A stretch of 64,000 nt of DNA from Pseudomonas hormoni. GTDB lineage: Bacteria; Pseudomonadota; Gammaproteobacteria; Pseudomonadales; Pseudomonadaceae. The translations under genes were made by a program, and so were the position numbers. Below are positions 56,018 through 64,000 of this stretch, in pieces (within the stretch, counting starts at the first letter, position 1; every line of letters begins with the position of its first letter). The notes beneath the pieces are model-generated. The model saw only the letters and a list, made by a program, of their open reading frames with translations. It did not search any database and was not told where the DNA came from. Location: the NCBI RefSeq assembly GCF_018502625.1, contig NZ_CP075566.1:4715001-4779000 (forward strand), read 5' to 3'.

Positions 56018-56082
56018 TTCGCGGGCAAGCCTCGCTCCTACAGGTCAGTGGTGATCTTGTAGGAGCGAGGCTTGCCCGCGAA
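56018..56082. repeat. REPIN with perfect 25-bp arms
   Basis: TTCGCGGGCAAGCCTCGCTC...CTACA (56018-56042) and its exact complement (56058-56082), 15-nt spacer, just after ndh. Confidence 0.93.
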
Positions 56083-56308
56083 TGAGGGCACCTCGGTCCA
56101 GCCTGCAAACACATGTGTGTCTCACTGTATCTCCCCCCGCGATTTCGCCCCTTCGCTTACAAACTCCCCCTTGCGCGACACAGTAGCGATACACCCCGAC
56201 CGTTAAATGGCCACATCCGGGCAAGGCACCTCGCCAGCTACGGTTATCGCCGCACTTACGTGGCGTCCTTTTTCGAACGGTTGTGTTGTGCAACCCAGGA
56301 GATTTGAA

Positions 56309-56707
56309 ATGTCCCGTACCACCAAAAACACTATCGGTTTGCTCGGTGCTGTCCTTGCAGGCGGCATGATGTTGACCGGCGCCGCTTTCGCTTCGCAGCC
56401 TTTGACCCAGGGCTACCTGCTGGCCTCGGCCGAACAAGTGGTGAAGACCCCTGAAGGCAAATGCGGCGAAGGCAAGTGTGGCGATGCATCGATGGCAAAA
56501 ACCGACACCGATGGTGACGGCAAGGTCTCTCGCGCTGAATTCCAGAAAGTTGCGCCGAAGTCCAACTTCGACAAGATCGACACCAACCACGACGGCTTCA
56601 TCGACGAGCAAGAGGCTTACGACAACGTGAAAGCCAACTTCGAAGCCAATGGCAAGAAAATGCCAAAAGGCCTGTTCGAGCACCTGAAAGACCAAGACGG
56701 CGCCTAA
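56309..56707 (+). CDS. Secreted EF-hand protein with tandem EGKCG motif
   Basis: This 132-residue protein has a signal peptide (MSRTTKNTIGLLGAVLAGGM..., cleavage near AFA-S29) and the motif EGKCGEGKCG at residues 49-58, which holds its only two cysteines. Two canonical EF-hand loops follow (DTDGDGKVSRAE, 66-77; DTNHDGFIDEQE, 91-102). The tandem EGKCG unit is the modification site of HvfA-type copper-binding RiPP precursors, in which an MNIO enzyme (DUF692) with a DUF2063-type partner converts the cysteines. No such genes are in this window. AGGAG lies 7 nt before the ATG. The calcium-binding part is clear; cysteine modification is inference. Confidence 0.8.
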   Translation: MSRTTKNTIGLLGAVLAGGMMLTGAAFASQPLTQGYLLASAEQVVKTPEGKCGEGKCGDASMAKTDTDGDGKVSRAEFQKVAPKSNFDKIDTNHDGFIDEQEAYDNVKANFEANGKKMPKGLFEHLKDQDGA

Positions 56708-56720
56708 GCCTACAAGAAAA

Positions 56721-56757
56721 AAGCCGCGCTTCTCGATCGAGAAACGCGGCTTTTTTT
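56721..56757. terminator. Bidirectional rho-independent terminator
   Basis: AAGCCGCG...CGCGGCTT with an inner TTCTC-GATC-GAGAA stem, A-tract before and T-tract after. It serves the EF-hand gene and the convergent O-antigen operon. Confidence 0.92.
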
Positions 56758-56791: not shown

Positions 56792-58789
56792 TCAAACGTC
56801 GTCGGAACAACCCGACTTCTGACGGCGCTCATGAATCAGGTCGACAATGTGGCATTCGGGTTCGTAGCCGTTGACCGTATCGCGCAACAGCGTGCGAACT
56901 TGCACATAGTCATCCTCCGCAACGGCTTCCAACAGCGCTGAAATCGCCTGTTTGAAGTCTTCCCACGGCAGATGCTCTTCGTCGGCGCGCATGATCATCG
57001 CGTGTTCGGTCGGGGACACGTTGTCACCGATCAGCAACTCTTCATAGAGCTTTTCGCCTCGGCGCAGGCCAGTAAACTCGATCGCAATGTCCCCATTCGG
57101 TCGCTCTTCGCTACGCAGGGAAAGGCCGGACAGGTGGACCATCTTTTCCGCCAGGTCGGCGATCTTCACCGGTTGCCCCATGTCGAGCACGAACACGTCG
57201 CCACCCTGCCCCATTGAGCCCGCCTGGATCACCAGTTGCGCGGCCTCGGGAATGGTCATGAAATAGCGGGTCATGTTCGGATGGGTCACCGTAATCGGCC
57301 CACCATTCTTGATTTGCTCGCGAAACAGCGGGATCACCGAACCGGACGAACCCAGCACATTGCCGAAACGCACCATGGTGAACCGGGTCGCGTTGGTGCA
57401 AGGCGCCGTGAAGTGCTCACCCAGCAGCAGCGGATTGGACTCGCGGCTCAGGGCCTGCAGTGTCATCTCGGCCAGCCGCTTGGTGCACCCCATGACATTG
57501 GTCGGTCGCACCGCCTTGTCGGTGGAGATCAGCACGAAGTGCTCGACCCCCGCCTGCACGGCCGCCTGCGCAGTCTGCAAGGTCCCGAGGACGTTGTTCA
57601 ACACGCCTTCGGCAACGTTATGCTCGACGATCGGCACATGTTTATAGGCCGCGGCGTGATAGACCGTCTTCACGCTCCAGGTGCGCATCACATCCAGCAG
57701 ACGCTCGCTGTTGCGAATCGAACCGAGGATCGGCACCAACTCCAGGTTCAGCCCCTCGCTTTGGATCAATCTCTCCAACTCGCTATGAATGCTGTAGAGA
57801 TTGAACTCACTGTGTTCAAACAGAATCAGTGCCGTCGGTTTGCTGGTGAGGATTTGCCGGCACAGCTCGGAACCAATGGAACCGCCCGCTCCGGTCACCA
57901 TGACCACCTGGCCACGAATGCAGCGCTCGAAAAGAGTCTGCTGCGCCGCAACCGAGTCTCGCCCGAGCAGATCGATAATATCGACTTCCTGCAGATCGCT
58001 GACACTGACCCGGCCATTGGCCAGATCCATAAACCCCGGAATCGTGCGCACGTGCAATGGATAAGACTCAAGCGCACTCAGAATCTCTCGACGCCTTGCA
58101 CGTGATGCCGATGGAATGGCCAGCAACACTTCTGTTGCACCGGTTTCCTCGATCAGCTGTTCAATATCCTTGGACGGATAAACCTTGAGACCGGCGATCA
58201 CCCGACCTGCAATGCTCGGGTCATCATCGATCAAGGCGACCGGACGCATCGCCTTCTCCATGCGCAGTGCTGCCACCAGCTGATTGCCTGCCGCCCCGCC
58301 ACCATAGATGGCGACCCTGGTGGCGTCATCGTCCTGGCGCAGGAAAGGAACATGCTGTCCGGCGAGAAACCAGTCACCGAGAAAATACTGGCGCATGAAC
58401 AAACGCAGGCCGCCGACCATCAACAAACTCAGCCACCAGTAATTGACGATCAGCGAGCGTGGTACCAGTACGCCAGGGCGGTACAAATAGACGTAGACCG
58501 TCAACAGCAGCGCCGACAAGGTCACGGCCTTGAAGATACTGAGCAGGGCATCGTTGCCGAAATAACGCATCACCGCGCGATACAGGCCGAGGTTGATAAA
58601 GATGGGGATTGCAATGACCGGCGCAGCCGCGAACAGCCACGCATAATCCCCGAAAGGATTCACGGGTCGCTCAATACCCAGACGCACGACAAACGCCAAC
58701 CAGAGCGCCACCCAGACCAGCACTATGTCAATCAGCAACTGCAAGACGCGCTTATAGCTACGCGGCAGATTCAATAAACGCTCACGCAT
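56792..58789 (-). CDS. wbpM: WbpM-like nucleotide-sugar 4,6-dehydratase (polysaccharide biosynthesis)
   Basis: This 665-residue membrane-anchored dehydratase converts UDP-GlcNAc to the 4-keto-6-deoxy sugar in B-band O-antigen synthesis. It has four N-terminal helices (about 15-135), a first Rossmann unit YGGGAAGNQLV, and a C-terminal SDR domain starting VTGAGGSIGSELCRQI. Its catalytic site has Met in place of Tyr (TNVMGCTKRLAE), as in WbpM. The length equals P. aeruginosa WbpM. The ATG at 58789 (MRERLLNL) is preferred to one 12 codons upstream. It is the last gene of the cluster. Confidence 0.93.
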   Translation of the reverse strand: MRERLLNLPRSYKRVLQLLIDIVLVWVALWLAFVVRLGIERPVNPFGDYAWLFAAAPVIAIPIFINLGLYRAVMRYFGNDALLSIFKAVTLSALLLTVYVYLYRPGVLVPRSLIVNYWWLSLLMVGGLRLFMRQYFLGDWFLAGQHVPFLRQDDDATRVAIYGGGAAGNQLVAALRMEKAMRPVALIDDDPSIAGRVIAGLKVYPSKDIEQLIEETGATEVLLAIPSASRARRREILSALESYPLHVRTIPGFMDLANGRVSVSDLQEVDIIDLLGRDSVAAQQTLFERCIRGQVVMVTGAGGSIGSELCRQILTSKPTALILFEHSEFNLYSIHSELERLIQSEGLNLELVPILGSIRNSERLLDVMRTWSVKTVYHAAAYKHVPIVEHNVAEGVLNNVLGTLQTAQAAVQAGVEHFVLISTDKAVRPTNVMGCTKRLAEMTLQALSRESNPLLLGEHFTAPCTNATRFTMVRFGNVLGSSGSVIPLFREQIKNGGPITVTHPNMTRYFMTIPEAAQLVIQAGSMGQGGDVFVLDMGQPVKIADLAEKMVHLSGLSLRSEERPNGDIAIEFTGLRRGEKLYEELLIGDNVSPTEHAMIMRADEEHLPWEDFKQAISALLEAVAEDDYVQVRTLLRDTVNGYEPECHIVDLIHERRQKSGCSDDV

Positions 58790-58840
58790 TACACGATTTC
58801 CCTTCGCTCGACTTACTGCCTGCAATCCACCCTCTCCCTG

Positions 58841-59803
58841 TCACACTCGCGGCTCCAGAAAGTCTTTCGCGGTCTTTGCCAACGCCCCATCCACACTGAT
58901 CGCCGGGGTCCATTCGAGCAACGCTTTGGTTTTCTCGATATCAACCTGAAGCGACCCGCAGAGACGCTGCGACAAGGCCTTTTTTCCCAGCAGTTGCGCA
59001 GTGCCGCTCAACAGCCACATCGGCAATGGCAGCAAGCGCGCCGGCCGGCCCAAAGCCCGGGCCATACGTCGCAGCAGATCGCTGGTGGACAGATCCTCGT
59101 CGTCGCTCACCAGGAAAACCTGATTGGCAGCGGCGGGATGATGGATGCAGCTCACGATCAGGTCGACCAGATTGTCCAGGGCCACCAGGCTGCGCTTGTT
59201 GGTAATGGCTCCCAGCGGCAATGGCACGCCTTTATTGAGCCAACCCATCATGCTGCGAAAGTTGGCCTTCACCCCAGGGCCATAGACCAGCACCGGACGA
59301 ATGATCACCACTTCCATACCGGTTTTCGCCGCCAGGGCTTGCAATGCCTGCTCAGCCTCCAGTTTGGAGACACCATAAGGATCCAGCGGAGCGGGCTGGT
59401 CATCGGCCGTATAAGGGTGGCCGGGCAGTGTGCCCTCACCGTTGACCTTGATCGAACTCAGATAGATGAAACGCCGGACACCGGTCTGGGCTGCTTCCTC
59501 CGCAAGACGTAACGTCCCCTGCACATTGGCCCGACGAAAGGCGGCCAGCGGATCGGCTTCGCGCTCGTTCATGACATGCACGCGGGCAGCACAGTGAATC
59601 ACGGCTTCGACGCCCTCGAGCGGCACCTGCCAGTCGGTGTCCGGCTCAAGTCCGGACACCTGACAGACTTCCAGGCGGGGCGAGGACTGCGGCGGTAGCT
59701 GTCGATAGACAGCACGCACTGCAAATTGAGGATCAGTCAGCAGACGAGCCTGGACCGCAGACCCGACAAAGCCGCTGGCCCCCGTCAAAAGGACTCGCAT
59801 CAT
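58841..59803 (-). CDS. NAD-dependent sugar epimerase/dehydratase (WbpV-like SDR)
   Basis: This 320-residue extended SDR has VLLTGASGFVGSAV and catalytic YGVSK. It resembles UDP-GlcNAc/QuiNAc 4-epimerases or reductases that end O-antigen clusters (WbpV type). It normally works with a WbpL-type glycosyl-phosphate transferase that starts the O-unit; here no wbpL lies between it and wbpM (51-bp gap). Two adjacent ATGs (59803, 59800) are possible starts. Confidence 0.85.
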   Translation of the reverse strand: MMRVLLTGASGFVGSAVQARLLTDPQFAVRAVYRQLPPQSSPRLEVCQVSGLEPDTDWQVPLEGVEAVIHCAARVHVMNEREADPLAAFRRANVQGTLRLAEEAAQTGVRRFIYLSSIKVNGEGTLPGHPYTADDQPAPLDPYGVSKLEAEQALQALAAKTGMEVVIIRPVLVYGPGVKANFRSMMGWLNKGVPLPLGAITNKRSLVALDNLVDLIVSCIHHPAAANQVFLVSDDEDLSTSDLLRRMARALGRPARLLPLPMWLLSGTAQLLGKKALSQRLCGSLQVDIEKTKALLEWTPAISVDGALAKTAKDFLEPRV

Positions 59804-59810
59804 AGTGGGC

Positions 59811-60938
59811 TCAAGCCTTGCTCCACACCGTGCGATTGATGTAGTCGGTGTAACTCAGGACAACGCGAACCACCTGCAGCGAAACCGGTCCGCCTTGATA
59901 ATCCGGCACCAGTGGCACCTTGCGCTGTTCGCGAGAATGCTGGCTGGTCACCACCCGCACCGCATCCATCACGGAACCGCGCTTCAGGCCGCTCATGATC
60001 AGCGTACCTTCATCCATCCCTTCGGGACGCTCATGGGCGTTGCGCAGGGTGACGGCAGGCAGGTTAAGCAAGGACGCTTCTTCGGTAATGGTGCCGCTGT
60101 CAGAAAGCACACAGAACGCCGACATCTGCAGCTTGATGTAGTCCAGCAGACCGAAAGGTTTGACGAAGCGGATCAACGGGTGATCAAGGGATTCACCCAA
60201 GGCTTCCAGACGCTTGCGCGTACGTGGATGAGTCGAAACGATCAACGGGAAACCATATTGATCGGCCAGGGCCCGCAGGGTATCCAGCAAATCGCGCAGG
60301 TTGTCCGGCGTGTCGACGTTTTCCTCGCGGTGGATACTGACGATGAAGAACTTGTCCTGCTCGAGGCCACTGCGCGTCAGCACATCGGACAGCTCGATCT
60401 TGGGCATGTAGTGCTCGAGGACTTCCTGCATGTGCGAGCCGGTCTTGATGATCGTTTCAGGGCGAATACCCTCGGCGATCAGGTAACGGCGAGCATGCTC
60501 GGTCAGCACCATGTTGATGTCGCTGAGGTGATCGAGCACCTTGCGGTTCAATTCTTCAGGCACGCGCTGGTCGAAGCAGCGGTTGCCCGCCTCCATATGG
60601 AACACCGGAATCTTGCGACGCTTGGCAGAAATCACCGCGAGGCAGGTATTGGTGTCGCCGTACAGCAGCAAGGCGTCAGGCTTTTCCAGTTCGAAGATTT
60701 CATCGGACTTGGCAATGACTTCGGCGATGGTCTTGGCAGCCGTATCGCCGGCAGCGCCGAGGAAATGATCCGGCTTGCGGATTTCCAGGTCGTCGAAGAA
60801 CACCTGATTGAGTTCGTAATCGTAATTCTGCCCGGAGTGCACCAGGACATGATTGACCTGGCGATCCAGCTCGGCGATGACCCGGCTCATCTTGATCAGC
60901 TCGGGACGTGTACCGACCAGCGTCATGACCTTAAGCAT
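59811..60938 (-). CDS. UDP-N-acetyl-sugar 2-epimerase (WbjD/WbvD/FnlC type)
   Basis: This 375-residue GT-B-fold epimerase has LVGTRPELIKMSRVI, GDTNTCLA, HMEAGNRCFDQRVPEE, SIHREENVD and LSDSGTITEEAS. The HMEAGNRCFDQRVPEE block is typical of the enzymes that invert C2 of UDP-L-6-deoxy-amino sugars rather than of classical WecB. It follows the 4,6-dehydratase with an 8-nt overlap and probably makes the final UDP-L-QuiNAc or UDP-L-FucNAc. Confidence 0.88.
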   Translation of the reverse strand: MLKVMTLVGTRPELIKMSRVIAELDRQVNHVLVHSGQNYDYELNQVFFDDLEIRKPDHFLGAAGDTAAKTIAEVIAKSDEIFELEKPDALLLYGDTNTCLAVISAKRRKIPVFHMEAGNRCFDQRVPEELNRKVLDHLSDINMVLTEHARRYLIAEGIRPETIIKTGSHMQEVLEHYMPKIELSDVLTRSGLEQDKFFIVSIHREENVDTPDNLRDLLDTLRALADQYGFPLIVSTHPRTRKRLEALGESLDHPLIRFVKPFGLLDYIKLQMSAFCVLSDSGTITEEASLLNLPAVTLRNAHERPEGMDEGTLIMSGLKRGSVMDAVRVVTSQHSREQRKVPLVPDYQGGPVSLQVVRVVLSYTDYINRTVWSKA

Positions 60939-61941
60939 CGAGTTGCTCCTTGATGTAATCGAGTTTCAGCAACAGCTCCTTGATACCCGGTACATCCAGA
61001 CGCTCGGTATTATGCGAGGTGTAGTCGTCGAACTCGGATATACGTTCCTCGCCCTCGACAAAGTACTTGTTGTAGTTCAGGTCACGGTTGTCGGCCGGAA
61101 TCCGGTAATAACGCCCCATGTCCTCGGCCTTGGCCATTTCCTCGCGAGAAACCAGCGACTCGTACAGTTTCTCGCCGTGGCGAGTACCGATCACCTTGAC
61201 ATCGTTTTTCTTGCCGAACAGTTGCTTGAGCGCTTCGGCCAGGTCGCCGACTGTCGAGGCCGGGGCTTTCTGGACGAACAGATCGCCTTGCTGGCCGTGC
61301 TCGAAAGCATGCAGAACCAGATCAACAGAATCTTCAAGCGACATGAGGAAGCGAGTCATTTCCGGGTCGGTCACCGTCAGTGCGCCACCCGTGCGAAGCT
61401 GGTCGACGAACAACGGAATTACCGAGCCGCGCGAGGCCATGACGTTGCCATAACGGGTCGCGCAAATGACCGGGCCATTGGCCGGGATCATGCGCGACTT
61501 GGCGACCATCAACTTCTCGGACATTGCCTTGGAGATGCCCATGGCGTTGATCGGATAGACCGCCTTGTCAGTGCTCAACACCACAACCCGCTGCACGCCG
61601 CTGGCGATGGCCGCGTTCAGCACGTTCTCGGTGCCCAGCACGTTGGTGCGCACCGCTTCCATCGGATAGAACTCGCAGGACGGAACCTGCTTCAGCGCCG
61701 CAGCATGGAAGATGTAATCCACACCGACCATCGCCTGACGCAAGCTGTCGTAATCGCGAACATCGCCGATGTAGAACTTGACCTTGTCATTGGCCAGGGC
61801 GATACGCATGTCTTCCTGCTTCTTCTCATCGCGACTGAAGATGCGAATCTCGCGCACAGCGGTATTGAGAAAACGCTTGAGGACCGTATGGCCGAAAGAA
61901 CCGGTGCCACCGGTGATCATCAATACCTTGTCGTCGAACAT
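60931..61941 (-). CDS. UDP-GlcNAc 4,6-dehydratase/5-epimerase (WbjB/WbvB/FnlA type)
   Basis: This 336-residue SDR has MITGGTGSFGHTVLKRFL, RIFSRDEKKQEDMR and active site AVYPINAMGISKAMSE (Met at the usual Tyr). It lacks the membrane domain of WbpM. It makes UDP-4-keto-6-deoxy-L-sugars from UDP-GlcNAc. The ATG at 61941 has AAGG 6 nt upstream; in-frame ATGs at 61959 and 61971 lack this. Confidence 0.9.
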   Translation of the reverse strand: MFDDKVLMITGGTGSFGHTVLKRFLNTAVREIRIFSRDEKKQEDMRIALANDKVKFYIGDVRDYDSLRQAMVGVDYIFHAAALKQVPSCEFYPMEAVRTNVLGTENVLNAAIASGVQRVVVLSTDKAVYPINAMGISKAMSEKLMVAKSRMIPANGPVICATRYGNVMASRGSVIPLFVDQLRTGGALTVTDPEMTRFLMSLEDSVDLVLHAFEHGQQGDLFVQKAPASTVGDLAEALKQLFGKKNDVKVIGTRHGEKLYESLVSREEMAKAEDMGRYYRIPADNRDLNYNKYFVEGEERISEFDDYTSHNTERLDVPGIKELLLKLDYIKEQLDA

Positions 61942-62064
61942 GTAAACCTTCTGAATCATGGGGCTTCGCAACGAAGCGCAATTTAAGATAAAGCCATCTA
62001 GCTCGTCGGCTACAAATTACCCAAAACGTCTAGCAGCACCAACAACAGTCAAAATCACCAATAT

Positions 62065-62925
62065 TCAACGATCCGTATTCATCCTGCGAATCAGCTCTGG
62101 CCAACCCGGCGCCACGTAGCCAGTTGCCTCACGAAAACGTGAACCGTCCAGCGAGCGATCAATGACCAGTGCATCATCGGGCCGAATATCAATCTGCTTG
62201 CCGTACTCAGAGGCGACCAAAGCCAGTAAATCGAACTTGGCGATAGGCTCGGCAGCGACATGATACAGGCCATTGAGACTCAAGTGAGGAACGACGAAGT
62301 CTTTCATGACCCGCGCCAGTTCAACCGTCGGCAGCCCGGAGAAGATCGCCTTGGTAAATCCCTTTGCGCTCCCCTGCTGGGACAGGAACCAATCGACCAA
62401 TGCATGGCTCGAACCCAGCTCATGCCCGATGATCGAGGTACGCAGCGTGATCGCATGGGGCAAATCATGCAGCTCACCGATGTACTTGGACTTGCCATAC
62501 AAATCTTCTGCATCCGACGTATCGGACTCCAGGTAGCCACCCTTACGCCCGGAAAACACGCAGTCGGTGCTGACATGGATTAGCCGCGCACCGCTCAGCT
62601 CGCACAACCGGGCCAGCCGATGCGGCAGCATTGCATTAATCGGCAGAGCGGTGAGCGGATCCTTTGCATCGGCCAAATGCTTGATCAGCCCGACACAGTT
62701 AATCACCACATCTGGCCTGACCCGGGAGAATGCCGCCGCCAGCGCATCCTGGTCGAGCGCATCTACGCCAACCAGCAAACGCTCATGCGCTTGCAACGGA
62801 AAATTCCGGAGCGCCGACGCACTGCGCAGCGTACCCCATGTTTCATGGTGTGCATCAGCAGAGAACACACGAAAAACAGCATTGCCGAGCATGCCGGTAA
62901 CACCAAGAACCAGAACCCGTGCCAT
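62065..62925 (-). CDS. RmlD-like NDP-sugar reductase (WbvR-type)
   Basis: This 286-residue SDR of the dTDP-4-dehydrorhamnose reductase family has VLGVTGMLGNAVFRVF, HVSTDCVFSGRKGGY and catalytic YGKSK. In the UDP-L-FucNAc pathway the equivalent reductase (WbjC/FnlB/CapF) carries an additional C-terminal cupin domain and is about 370 residues; this protein ends without one and so looks like WbvR of the UDP-L-QuiNAc pathway. It lies in the same transcription direction, 123 bp ahead of the dehydratase gene. Confidence 0.85.
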   Translation of the reverse strand: MARVLVLGVTGMLGNAVFRVFSADAHHETWGTLRSASALRNFPLQAHERLLVGVDALDQDALAAAFSRVRPDVVINCVGLIKHLADAKDPLTALPINAMLPHRLARLCELSGARLIHVSTDCVFSGRKGGYLESDTSDAEDLYGKSKYIGELHDLPHAITLRTSIIGHELGSSHALVDWFLSQQGSAKGFTKAIFSGLPTVELARVMKDFVVPHLSLNGLYHVAAEPIAKFDLLALVASEYGKQIDIRPDDALVIDRSLDGSRFREATGYVAPGWPELIRRMNTDR

Positions 62926-62948
62926 GAATCGTAAACCTTCTTAAAATT

Positions 62949-64000
62949 TCAAGTCTTGTAGGAATAGCGCAGAAATCTATCAACGGAAAATAGAATCAGA
63001 ACATTCAACAATATGGAGCCGAACAGCATGTAGCTTTGCAATGGTACGTAACCAAAGCTGGTATAGCGAAAAGCTATAACCTGCGCTATCAACGCACAGA
63101 ACACCAGGTTCTTTCCACCCAGCCGGTAAACCATGTACTCAACAAACGCTGCAACTACTGAGAACGCAAATACTGCGCAGAACAAAAAGAGATAGGACCC
63201 AGGATAAAACAGAAATGCGATATATCCTGGCAAGGAAACGAAGTGCGTGCCATCACCGCGGGAGTTATCGTAGGAAGACTCCACAAAATGCTTGTCATAA
63301 AACGAGTTAACCGTTTTATCGAATTTCTCGGAAAGTGCCTCTTTGAACATCGGCCAACCTTTGTCTGTTGAACCCACCACAGACATGACACCTTCCACAC
63401 CCACCCAGCGATCAAGAAAAAGAGTGGACGTTTGTTCTACAACCGCTCCTTCACGCTGAGCCGGGGTGTAATCAGTATAATAAGTTTTAGCCCGCAAGTA
63501 GTTGACAGACAACACCGATGCGACAAATAAGGTACCGAAAACCACTACAACAAATCCCGCCAACCCTAAACGCAAGCGAGGCTCTTGCCGCCGAAACTGC
63601 GCCACGGCACCATACATCAAGGCAGACCCGTTGAGGATCATACCTCGACTCCACAAGGAGACATTGGACAATGCCACCTCCAGGAGAGCGATGACGATTG
63701 CGACCCAATAACGATCTCGGTTCAATTCGAACTCAAAACGCAAGATGATTGCAGAAACGGACGCCATCCCAAACATCAACAACCAGGCATAAACACCATT
63801 AAGCCCGAAAGGCAACTTCACCCGTTCAACCAGGCCTCTCTGGTAAATACCGAACCATGCATTGGAAATGCAGACGGCCAACACAGCCAAAATAAAGGCG
63901 GTCAGCAGTGCGATTCGATATTTTCGATAAAAAGCATACAACCCGGTATAGGAGATATCCGGCATCGTATCGGGATAACTAAAAAAGAAGCGCTGACGAA
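62949..64000 (-). CDS. Multi-spanning membrane protein, possible O-antigen polymerase Wzy (5' end outside window)
   Basis: 349 codons are visible and the frame stays open to the right edge, so the start is beyond the window; an internal ATG at 63965 is unlikely to be the true start. There are about seven hydrophobic helices and one large central periplasmic-type loop (about residues 160-240 of the visible part, rich in Tyr/Asp/Lys), the layout of Wzy polymerases. GC content is visibly lower than in the genes to its left, as usual for serotype-specific genes. I see no family signature; Wzy is inference from topology and from the O-antigen neighbours. Confidence 0.6.
   Translation of the reverse strand, partial: RQRFFFSYPDTMPDISYTGLYAFYRKYRIALLTAFILAVLAVCISNAWFGIYQRGLVERVKLPFGLNGVYAWLLMFGMASVSAIILRFEFELNRDRYWVAIVIALLEVALSNVSLWSRGMILNGSALMYGAVAQFRRQEPRLRLGLAGFVVVVFGTLFVASVLSVNYLRAKTYYTDYTPAQREGAVVEQTSTLFLDRWVGVEGVMSVVGSTDKGWPMFKEALSEKFDKTVNSFYDKHFVESSYDNSRGDGTHFVSLPGYIAFLFYPGSYLFLFCAVFAFSVVAAFVEYMVYRLGGKNLVFCALIAQVIAFRYTSFGYVPLQSYMLFGSILLNVLILFSVDRFLRYSYKT

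Follow-up and report, generated by a model that had tools for sequence, protein, structure and literature searches.

An EGKCG and EF-hand protein of Pseudomonas hormoni as a candidate substrate of a distant HvfB/HvfC pair with a common composite promoter

The window studied here is a stretch of 64,000 nucleotides of the Pseudomonas hormoni genome, and one of its genes encodes an EfhP-like protein in which two EGKCG repeats precede two EF-hands. The EGKCG cysteines of this protein are proposed to be modified in trans by an HvfB/HvfC pair encoded elsewhere in the genome, within a dispersed BfmR-type regulon, and the product would be an exported protein that binds Ca2+ and probably copper. We give this reading a probability of about 0.7. 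The anatomy of the protein, the enzyme pair, its co-occurrence with the protein and the common promoter were computed from the genome sequences. An earlier note on this DNA left two alternatives, namely maturation enzymes acting from another locus or an unmodified metal-binding role. The first is now favored and the second is less favored, because a substrate-less HvfB/HvfC pair exists elsewhere in the genome, co-occurs with the protein and has the same promoter architecture.

The protein and its locus

The gene at positions 56309–56707 (+ strand) was annotated, from its translation, domain profiles and 52% identity to the P. aeruginosa protein P0107, as encoding an EfhP-like Buf_EGKCG/EF-hand protein of 132 aa and a candidate HvfBC substrate. 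Translation confirmed the earlier statement that the only cysteines, at residues 52 and 57, both lie within EGKCGEGKCG. A putative Sec signal peptide (residues 1–28; 56309–56392, + strand) was recognized by eye in the translation: the hydrophobic N-terminus ends at AFA/SQP, and QPLTQGY then precedes EGKCGEGKCG. The hydrophobic N-terminus indicates that the protein is probably exported. With cleavage at this site, placed by eye, the mature protein (residues 29–132) would have an unmodified mass of 11,239 Da. An L-x-x-G-Y element found by motif count (residues 32–36; 56402–56416, + strand) is located between the signal peptide and the repeats. It was counted in 73 of 74 distinct EGKCG precursors, a set with many near-identical members, and is missing only from the decayed gene of genome G011; among the 120 listed homologs of the window protein (341 found), 108 have it. 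The element could be a recognition segment; note that for FonA, a related precursor, every position ahead of the core was reported to be individually dispensable (PMC12668002). A universal L..GY element was ruled out, the P. aeruginosa sequence being LGQGL.

The EGKCGEGKCG core (Cys52 and Cys57; 56453–56482, + strand) was assigned from the translation, an NCBIfam profile and ortholog conservation. The motif passed the cut-off of the NCBIfam domain model NF050137, KCGExKCG_twice (24.8 vs. 19.5 bits), and the window protein failed that of NF050188, the full-length HvfA (oxazolin) equivalog (23.6 vs. 95 bits). The two calcium-binding loops named in the earlier note were also found, as two EF-hand stretches with PF13202 above the Pfam cut-off (38.5 vs. 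25.9 bits). Loop 1 occupies residues 66–77 (DTDGDGKVSRAE; 56504–56539, + strand; PF13202/PF00036) and loop 2 residues 91–102 (DTNHDGFIDEQE; 56579–56614, + strand; PF13499/PF13405), and both are helix-strand-helix in the structure model. The mean pLDDT of this model was 59.4, with blocks of 40–56 in the repeat region and about 70–80 in the EF-hand pair. PF10048 (DUF2282, bufferin) was not among the 8 families matched by the protein at E up to 1. With EGKCG repeats N-terminal to two EF-hand_5 domains, the protein falls into the Buf_EGKCG/EF-hand_5 (EfhP) family.

P0107 (155 aa), which was equated with EfhP from its length and repeat number and not from its accession, showed 52% identity over 92% with the window protein (E 1.0e-36). 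The conservation of EGKCG, proposed earlier as a check, proved high: the EGKCGEGKCG core is kept in all 60 intact close orthologs, the window's own included, and the linker flanking this constant core varies among them. These orthologs were the 60 fetched out of 62 found at >220 bits, and the broken genes of G046 and G011 are outside the set. Among the best 120 of 341 homologs, obtained in a search that was seeded on shared 5-residue words and so biased towards motif-bearing proteins, at least one EGKCG was found in all 120 and at least two in 117. Free loss of the EGKCG cysteines, named earlier as a possible refutation, is thus not seen in the listed homologs, and conservation in the two sets ruled out a chance occurrence of EGKCG.

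Upstream of the window gene are ndh (identified with the Pyr_redox_2 profile) and a DUF1780 gene, and the downstream ORFs are, by inspection, nucleotide-sugar/O-antigen type genes, so the neighbors were described correctly before. It was also correct that the window has no DUF692 gene, and when an HvfC-type partner was used as the whole-genome query for DUF2063, the pair members lay outside the window. The gene is adjoined by ndh in 25 of 26 loci (own included); in the remaining locus, L014, a contig end interrupts the sequence. The window gene looks monocistronic because it is followed by an intrinsic-terminator-like hairpin with a terminal T run (56716–56757, + strand; fold −25.5 kcal/mol, z −5.71) and because a near-perfect REP-like hairpin (56018–56082; z −11.0) is located between ndh and its promoter. 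The terminator-like hairpin was seen by folding and is absent from the list of a simple terminator scan. A homolog in P. fluorescens Pf0-1 adjoins DUF1780/DUF3094 genes, with no DUF692 or DUF2063 in the description given of that locus (PMC4053335), and the window locus appears to be of this type because a DUF1780 gene lies upstream. The EfhP-type gene is followed by clpB at L071–L074, the four loci of relatives with the most flanking sequence; positions 56792–64000 of the window gave no clpB match and contain the O-antigen type cluster in its place.

The enzyme pair and its distribution in the genus

A whole-genome search for DUF692/DUF2063 pairs, advised in the earlier note, revealed two DUF692/MNIO genes. 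The gene at 1.696 Mb encodes HvfB (equivalog cut-off passed, 420.9 vs. 360), and its partner is HvfC (259 vs. 142). Both enzymes expected for an MNIO-matured captophorin are therefore encoded in this genome, but hvfBC is 3.08 Mb from the window gene rather than next to it. No precursor gene was found adjacent to hvfBC at the 1.696-Mb locus; directly upstream is a formamidase/acetamidase gene (PF03069; L001 88–1323 = G000:C1:1694371–1695606), whose true start is probably further upstream. The second MNIO gene, at 0.136 Mb, encodes BufB (360 vs. 310), with a DUF2282 precursor of its own and a DUF2063 gene adjacent, and a DoxX-like gene was noticed by inspection at the same locus. The accompanying search for further EGKCG proteins gave two more genes, so that three genes carry the EGKCGEGKC pattern, none of them beside hvfBC: the window gene, a short EGKCG gene followed by doxX at 2.822 Mb, and, at 2.893 Mb, a second EF-hand paralog, this one with four repeats. 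The window protein, earlier called an orphan, is thus not truly one, as the genome has one precursor-less HvfB/HvfC pair in addition to BufB.

Among PDB sequences, the best match of HvfB was 3BWW, which is reported as 72.4% identical to Haemophilus HvfB (PMC13419390), and the sole match of HvfC was 3DEE. The DVNN and DTHG stretches, which would hold the HvfB site-3 residues N175, D242 and H244, are present in the 3BWW alignment (matched by eye). In a 60-row MNIO tree, in which bootstrap values were unsettled and some branches were long, HvfB of this genome was placed within a 100/100 clade of 25 that contains all 16 EGKCG-labelled rows. Fifteen of these labels come from an EGKCG gene in the examined stretch, that of the enzyme studied here being assigned and not based on adjacency; for nine rows of the clade, the examined stretch contains no EGKCG gene, and L034 and L130 are one gene in two rows of the tree. 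The four DUF2282-linked rows fall outside the EGKCG clade.

The distribution of the protein was compared with that of the enzyme in 398 genomes of the genus (carrier, E ≤ 1e-12; HvfB type, E ≤ 1e-85). HvfB of this type was found in 147 of 151 carriers and in 26 of 247 non-carriers, with a Fisher p of about 2.5e-75 that ignores phylogeny, the lineages not being independent. At least six of the 26 HvfB-bearing non-carriers (G012, G069, G077, G078, G109 and G118) have a weaker EGKCG-type match directly before hvfB. In a set of 119 genomes, which is included in the 398, the window protein (E ≤ 1e-3) was present in 51, any MNIO in 96 and the HvfB type in 52 (at least 57% identity, the next matches being at most 47%). 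The HvfB type was found in 50 of these 51 carriers, the overlap being counted by eye.

Four carriers lack the HvfB type. In G315, a full hvfB is lacking only because the assembly, which is 78% complete, breaks off within the gene at a contig end. G011, the sole such carrier in the 119-genome set, has a decayed window-type gene with the promoter box still upstream; the decay counts for modification in trans and the retained box against it. In G183, hvfB is cut to residues 1–55 and hvfC matches only from residue 26 (locus L118), and an intact EfhP-type gene with EGKCGEGKCG and the promoter is located elsewhere in the genome. G233 likewise has an intact gene with EGKCGEGKCG and the promoter. In addition, G046 has an intact HvfB gene and a window-type gene (L032) broken into two pieces in different frames. 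The intact motifs of G183 and G233 and the broken gene of G046 count against the in-trans reading, and a rule that loss of the enzyme is always followed by decay of the substrate gene was rejected: the gene is decayed in G011, intact in G183 and G233, and broken in G046 despite the presence of the enzyme. The earlier suggestion that carriers might have no MNIO gene therefore fails for the 147 carriers with the HvfB type and retains some force for G183 and G233, as far as the HvfB type is concerned.

A common composite promoter

Five genes of the genome, namely the window gene, hvfB, the formamidase gene, the short EGKCG gene and the EF-hand paralog, were found to have a common composite promoter. 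In all five, a reversed TGTATC-N4-TGTATC-like box is followed exactly 61 bp on by a RAYACA-N5-GATACA box. Before the window gene, the reversed BfmR-like box (56116–56131, − strand) reads TGTGTC-N4-TGTATC on the + strand, and the forward BfmR-like box, 61 bp after it (56177–56193, + strand), is GACACA-N5-GATACA; each matches in 11 of 12 letters. A −10-like TTAAAT was seen by inspection 9 bp after the GATACA box (56203–56208, + strand), and a similar T[T/G/C]AA[A/C]T occurs at the same distance in the other four promoters; a sigma-70 consensus scan listed no promoter at TTAAAT. The bufA1 promoter contains neither the reversed nor the forward box. The formamidase gene, directly upstream of hvfBC, has a composite promoter separate from that of hvfB.

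Against a background of 3,955 stretches drawn at random from the window, the forward box had an empirical p of 0.0003 in all five promoters, and the reversed box had one of 0.0003 in four and of 0.034 at hvfB. A joint scan for the two boxes in the rest of the window and the four loci that contain the other genes of the set (193,272 positions, about 1.5% of the genome, with both strands searched) revealed only the other four promoters. The pattern RAYACANNNNNGATACA has 7 sites in the 6.48-Mb genome, five of them upstream of the gene set, with none for the reversed-pattern control, a count that is partly circular, these promoters having supplied the pattern. More independent evidence is given by the fixed spacing and by the relatives. 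Of 60 window-type genes, that of the window among them, 59 have a spacing of 60–62 bp, and the remaining one is truncated at a contig end. Among 11 operons of relatives that contain hvfB, the best-scoring boxes are 61 bp apart in 10, and L124 shows this spacing under a relaxed match; L127 and L128 have the box ahead of a short EGKCG gene that precedes hvfB. The spacing was also 61 bp in 4/4 formamidase promoters of relatives (a match in L121, in two pieces, was left out) and in 2/2 EF-hand paralogs. Where a precursor lies beside hvfBC, the spacing was 60–61 bp in four of six clusters, and L134 and L135 have no composite promoter. In L131, the box is located before doxX and an EF-hand gene, with none directly before hvfB. 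The last three loci count against the regulon reading.

Strict sites were counted in the 119 genomes, with 203 in all vs. 33 for the reversed control (our own count of the listing). The mean per genome was 4.3 where HvfB has at least 80% identity (31 genomes), 0.90 where the HvfB type is lacking (67) and 0.43 where HvfB is more divergent (21). The last value counts against a strict motif shared by the whole genus, and the sites in genomes without HvfB imply that the box has other targets. Two further box sites of the P. hormoni genome were dropped as members of the set, the reversed box being missing by eye. The first, L141 (GATACAAACCGGATACA; G000:C1:2617450–2617466, − strand), is followed by TTAACG at 9 bp and precedes a 62-aa membrane ORF; its 17-mer is identical in more than 10 genomes of the genus, which suggests a further conserved target. 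The second, L140 (GACACATTCCAGATACA; G000:C1:1939022–1939038), is identical in G005 and G049, and an ORF near it is presumably YbdD-like.

The composite promoter fits an activator of the OmpR family of the BfmR type, and BfmR would be the candidate binder of its boxes. In P. aeruginosa, the efhP-PA4106-PA4105 operon was reported as a direct BfmR target and efhP as the gene most activated by BfmR (11,268-fold), with sites GATACAnnGC (footprint) and TACAA-N3-GATACA (ChIP-seq) (PMC4148453, PMC8025907). A GATACA-type direct-repeat box likewise lies upstream of the window gene. The period of the reversed box is 10 bp, as in the published BfmR sites; that of the forward box is 11, which counts against the BfmR reading. 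So does the different BfmR motif of CGTAC repeats described in PMC10924945, which was not found by eye in these boxes. The genome contains two BfmRS-like pairs with OmpR-type regulators (Response_reg and Trans_reg_C), one of them about 2.5 kb from hvfBC, and GATACA-N4-GATACA is present upstream of both bfmR-like genes. The BfmRS-like name derives from a 72–73% match to part of the kinase beside the EfhP-HvfBC cluster of G057 and not from P. aeruginosa BfmS.

Proposed mechanism, rival readings and known systems

In the proposed mechanism, a BfmR-type regulator, once active, would switch on hvfBC and three precursors jointly. HvfC would contact the precursor near its N-terminal segment, and HvfB, an iron enzyme, would oxidize each EGKCG cysteine by four electrons, probably to 5-thiooxazole; the oxazolone/thioamide ligands named in the earlier note are superseded, this chemistry having been reassigned to 5-thiooxazole (PMC12668002, PMC13419390). 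The exported product would then hold Ca2+ in its EF-hands and a soft metal, copper or another, at its core. The parts of the system, including doxX with the short EGKCG gene, would be tied by regulation and not by linkage. Modification in trans, export, the binding of BfmR to the boxes, the copper role and any coupling of Ca2+ with copper are what we infer from the sequences. FonBC was reported to modify a two-repeat peptide (−8 Da) and not a one-repeat peptide (PMC12668002), and the window protein has exactly two EGKCG repeats. A more detailed version, to which we would give even odds, is that one HvfBC pair serves three unlinked EGKCG precursors, two of them with EF-hands, under a 61-bp promoter of the BfmRS type, and that Ca2+ may tune a 5-thiooxazole copper site.

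It is unlikely, in our view, that the cysteines remain plain thiols in a periplasmic sensor of Ca2+ that has an additional site for iron, copper or redox chemistry, as suggested for EfhP. Iron sensing via the EGKCG cysteines of EfhP has been raised (PMC11559002), recombinant EfhP from E. coli changes its structure upon Ca2+ binding (PMC9132961), and EGKCG is kept in G183 and G233, which lack the HvfB type. However, plain thiols leave unexplained the co-occurrence with one MNIO type, the common promoter and the EF-hand protein that adjoins HvfBC in other genomes (PMC4053335). Still less probably, the real substrate of HvfBC is the short EGKCG gene product (L003 type), and the EF-hand protein, in which the motif is a relic, receives little or no modification. 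HvfB could serve that precursor first, since the short gene directly precedes hvfB in G053 and G100 (L127 and L128), with the EF-hand gene elsewhere. This reading is opposed by the presence of EGKCGEGKCG in all 60 close orthologs next to a varying linker; the EF-hand gene also has the same promoter and, in other genomes (L130–L132), is itself the member of the hvfB cluster. Maturation by the BufB pair (L002) is very improbable: DUF2282-linked BufB or other MNIO genes are present in this genome and in G183, G233 and G011, but BufB lies beside its own DUF2282 precursor, which lacks the common promoter, and outside the EGKCG clade, and any MNIO occurs in 96 of 119 genomes vs. 51 with the protein.

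RiPP precursors are usually discovered in the neighborhood of the enzyme gene, and a common promoter offers a route for pairing orphan precursors with remote enzymes. The more detailed version above would, if correct, make EfhP, whose study as a Ca2+ sensor used protein from E. coli, a metallophore that is modified after translation. For EfhP-type proteins in general, a modification is predicted that recombinant protein produced in the absence of the enzymes would not have.

EfhP (PA4107) resembles the window protein in its signal-peptide-like N-terminus, EGKCG repeats and two EF-hands, with 52% identity for P0107. EfhP is described with four repeats (PMC11559002), vs. two in the window protein, and the P. 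aeruginosa proteins inspected have 2, 4 or 5. Control of EfhP by BfmR has been published (PMC4148453, PMC8025907), and efhP forms one operon with DUF692 and DUF2063 genes (PA4107-PA4106-PA4105; PMC4053335), whereas the enzymes are 3.08 Mb away here. Oxazolin/HvfABC and fontiphorin/FonABC, which are captophorins, share the EGKCG core and an HvfB/HvfC-type pair with the system described here; a band at roughly 305 nm is reported for oxazolin (PMC12668002). They are gene clusters with repeat precursors, whereas the present precursor has EF-hands, is unlinked and scores below the HvfA cut-off. Bufferin 1 (DUF2282) clusters, one of which is in the same genome, also combine an MNIO with a DUF2063 partner, but differ in precursor, MNIO clade and the lack of the common promoter. 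A link between BfmR and MNIO maturation was not found in the parts of the open-licence PMC literature searched. The protein architecture, the enzyme family and the BfmR control of efhP are each separately in print. The architecture, regarded earlier as unusual, is that of the published fusion of Buf_EGKCG with an EF-hand domain (PMC12452194), a relative of EfhP with the same domain order as in the window protein, and stand-alone precursor genes are mentioned in that publication. The chimaera is described there, in the text concerning it, without a shared regulon, trans-encoded HvfBC or a 61-bp promoter, all three of which are proposed here.
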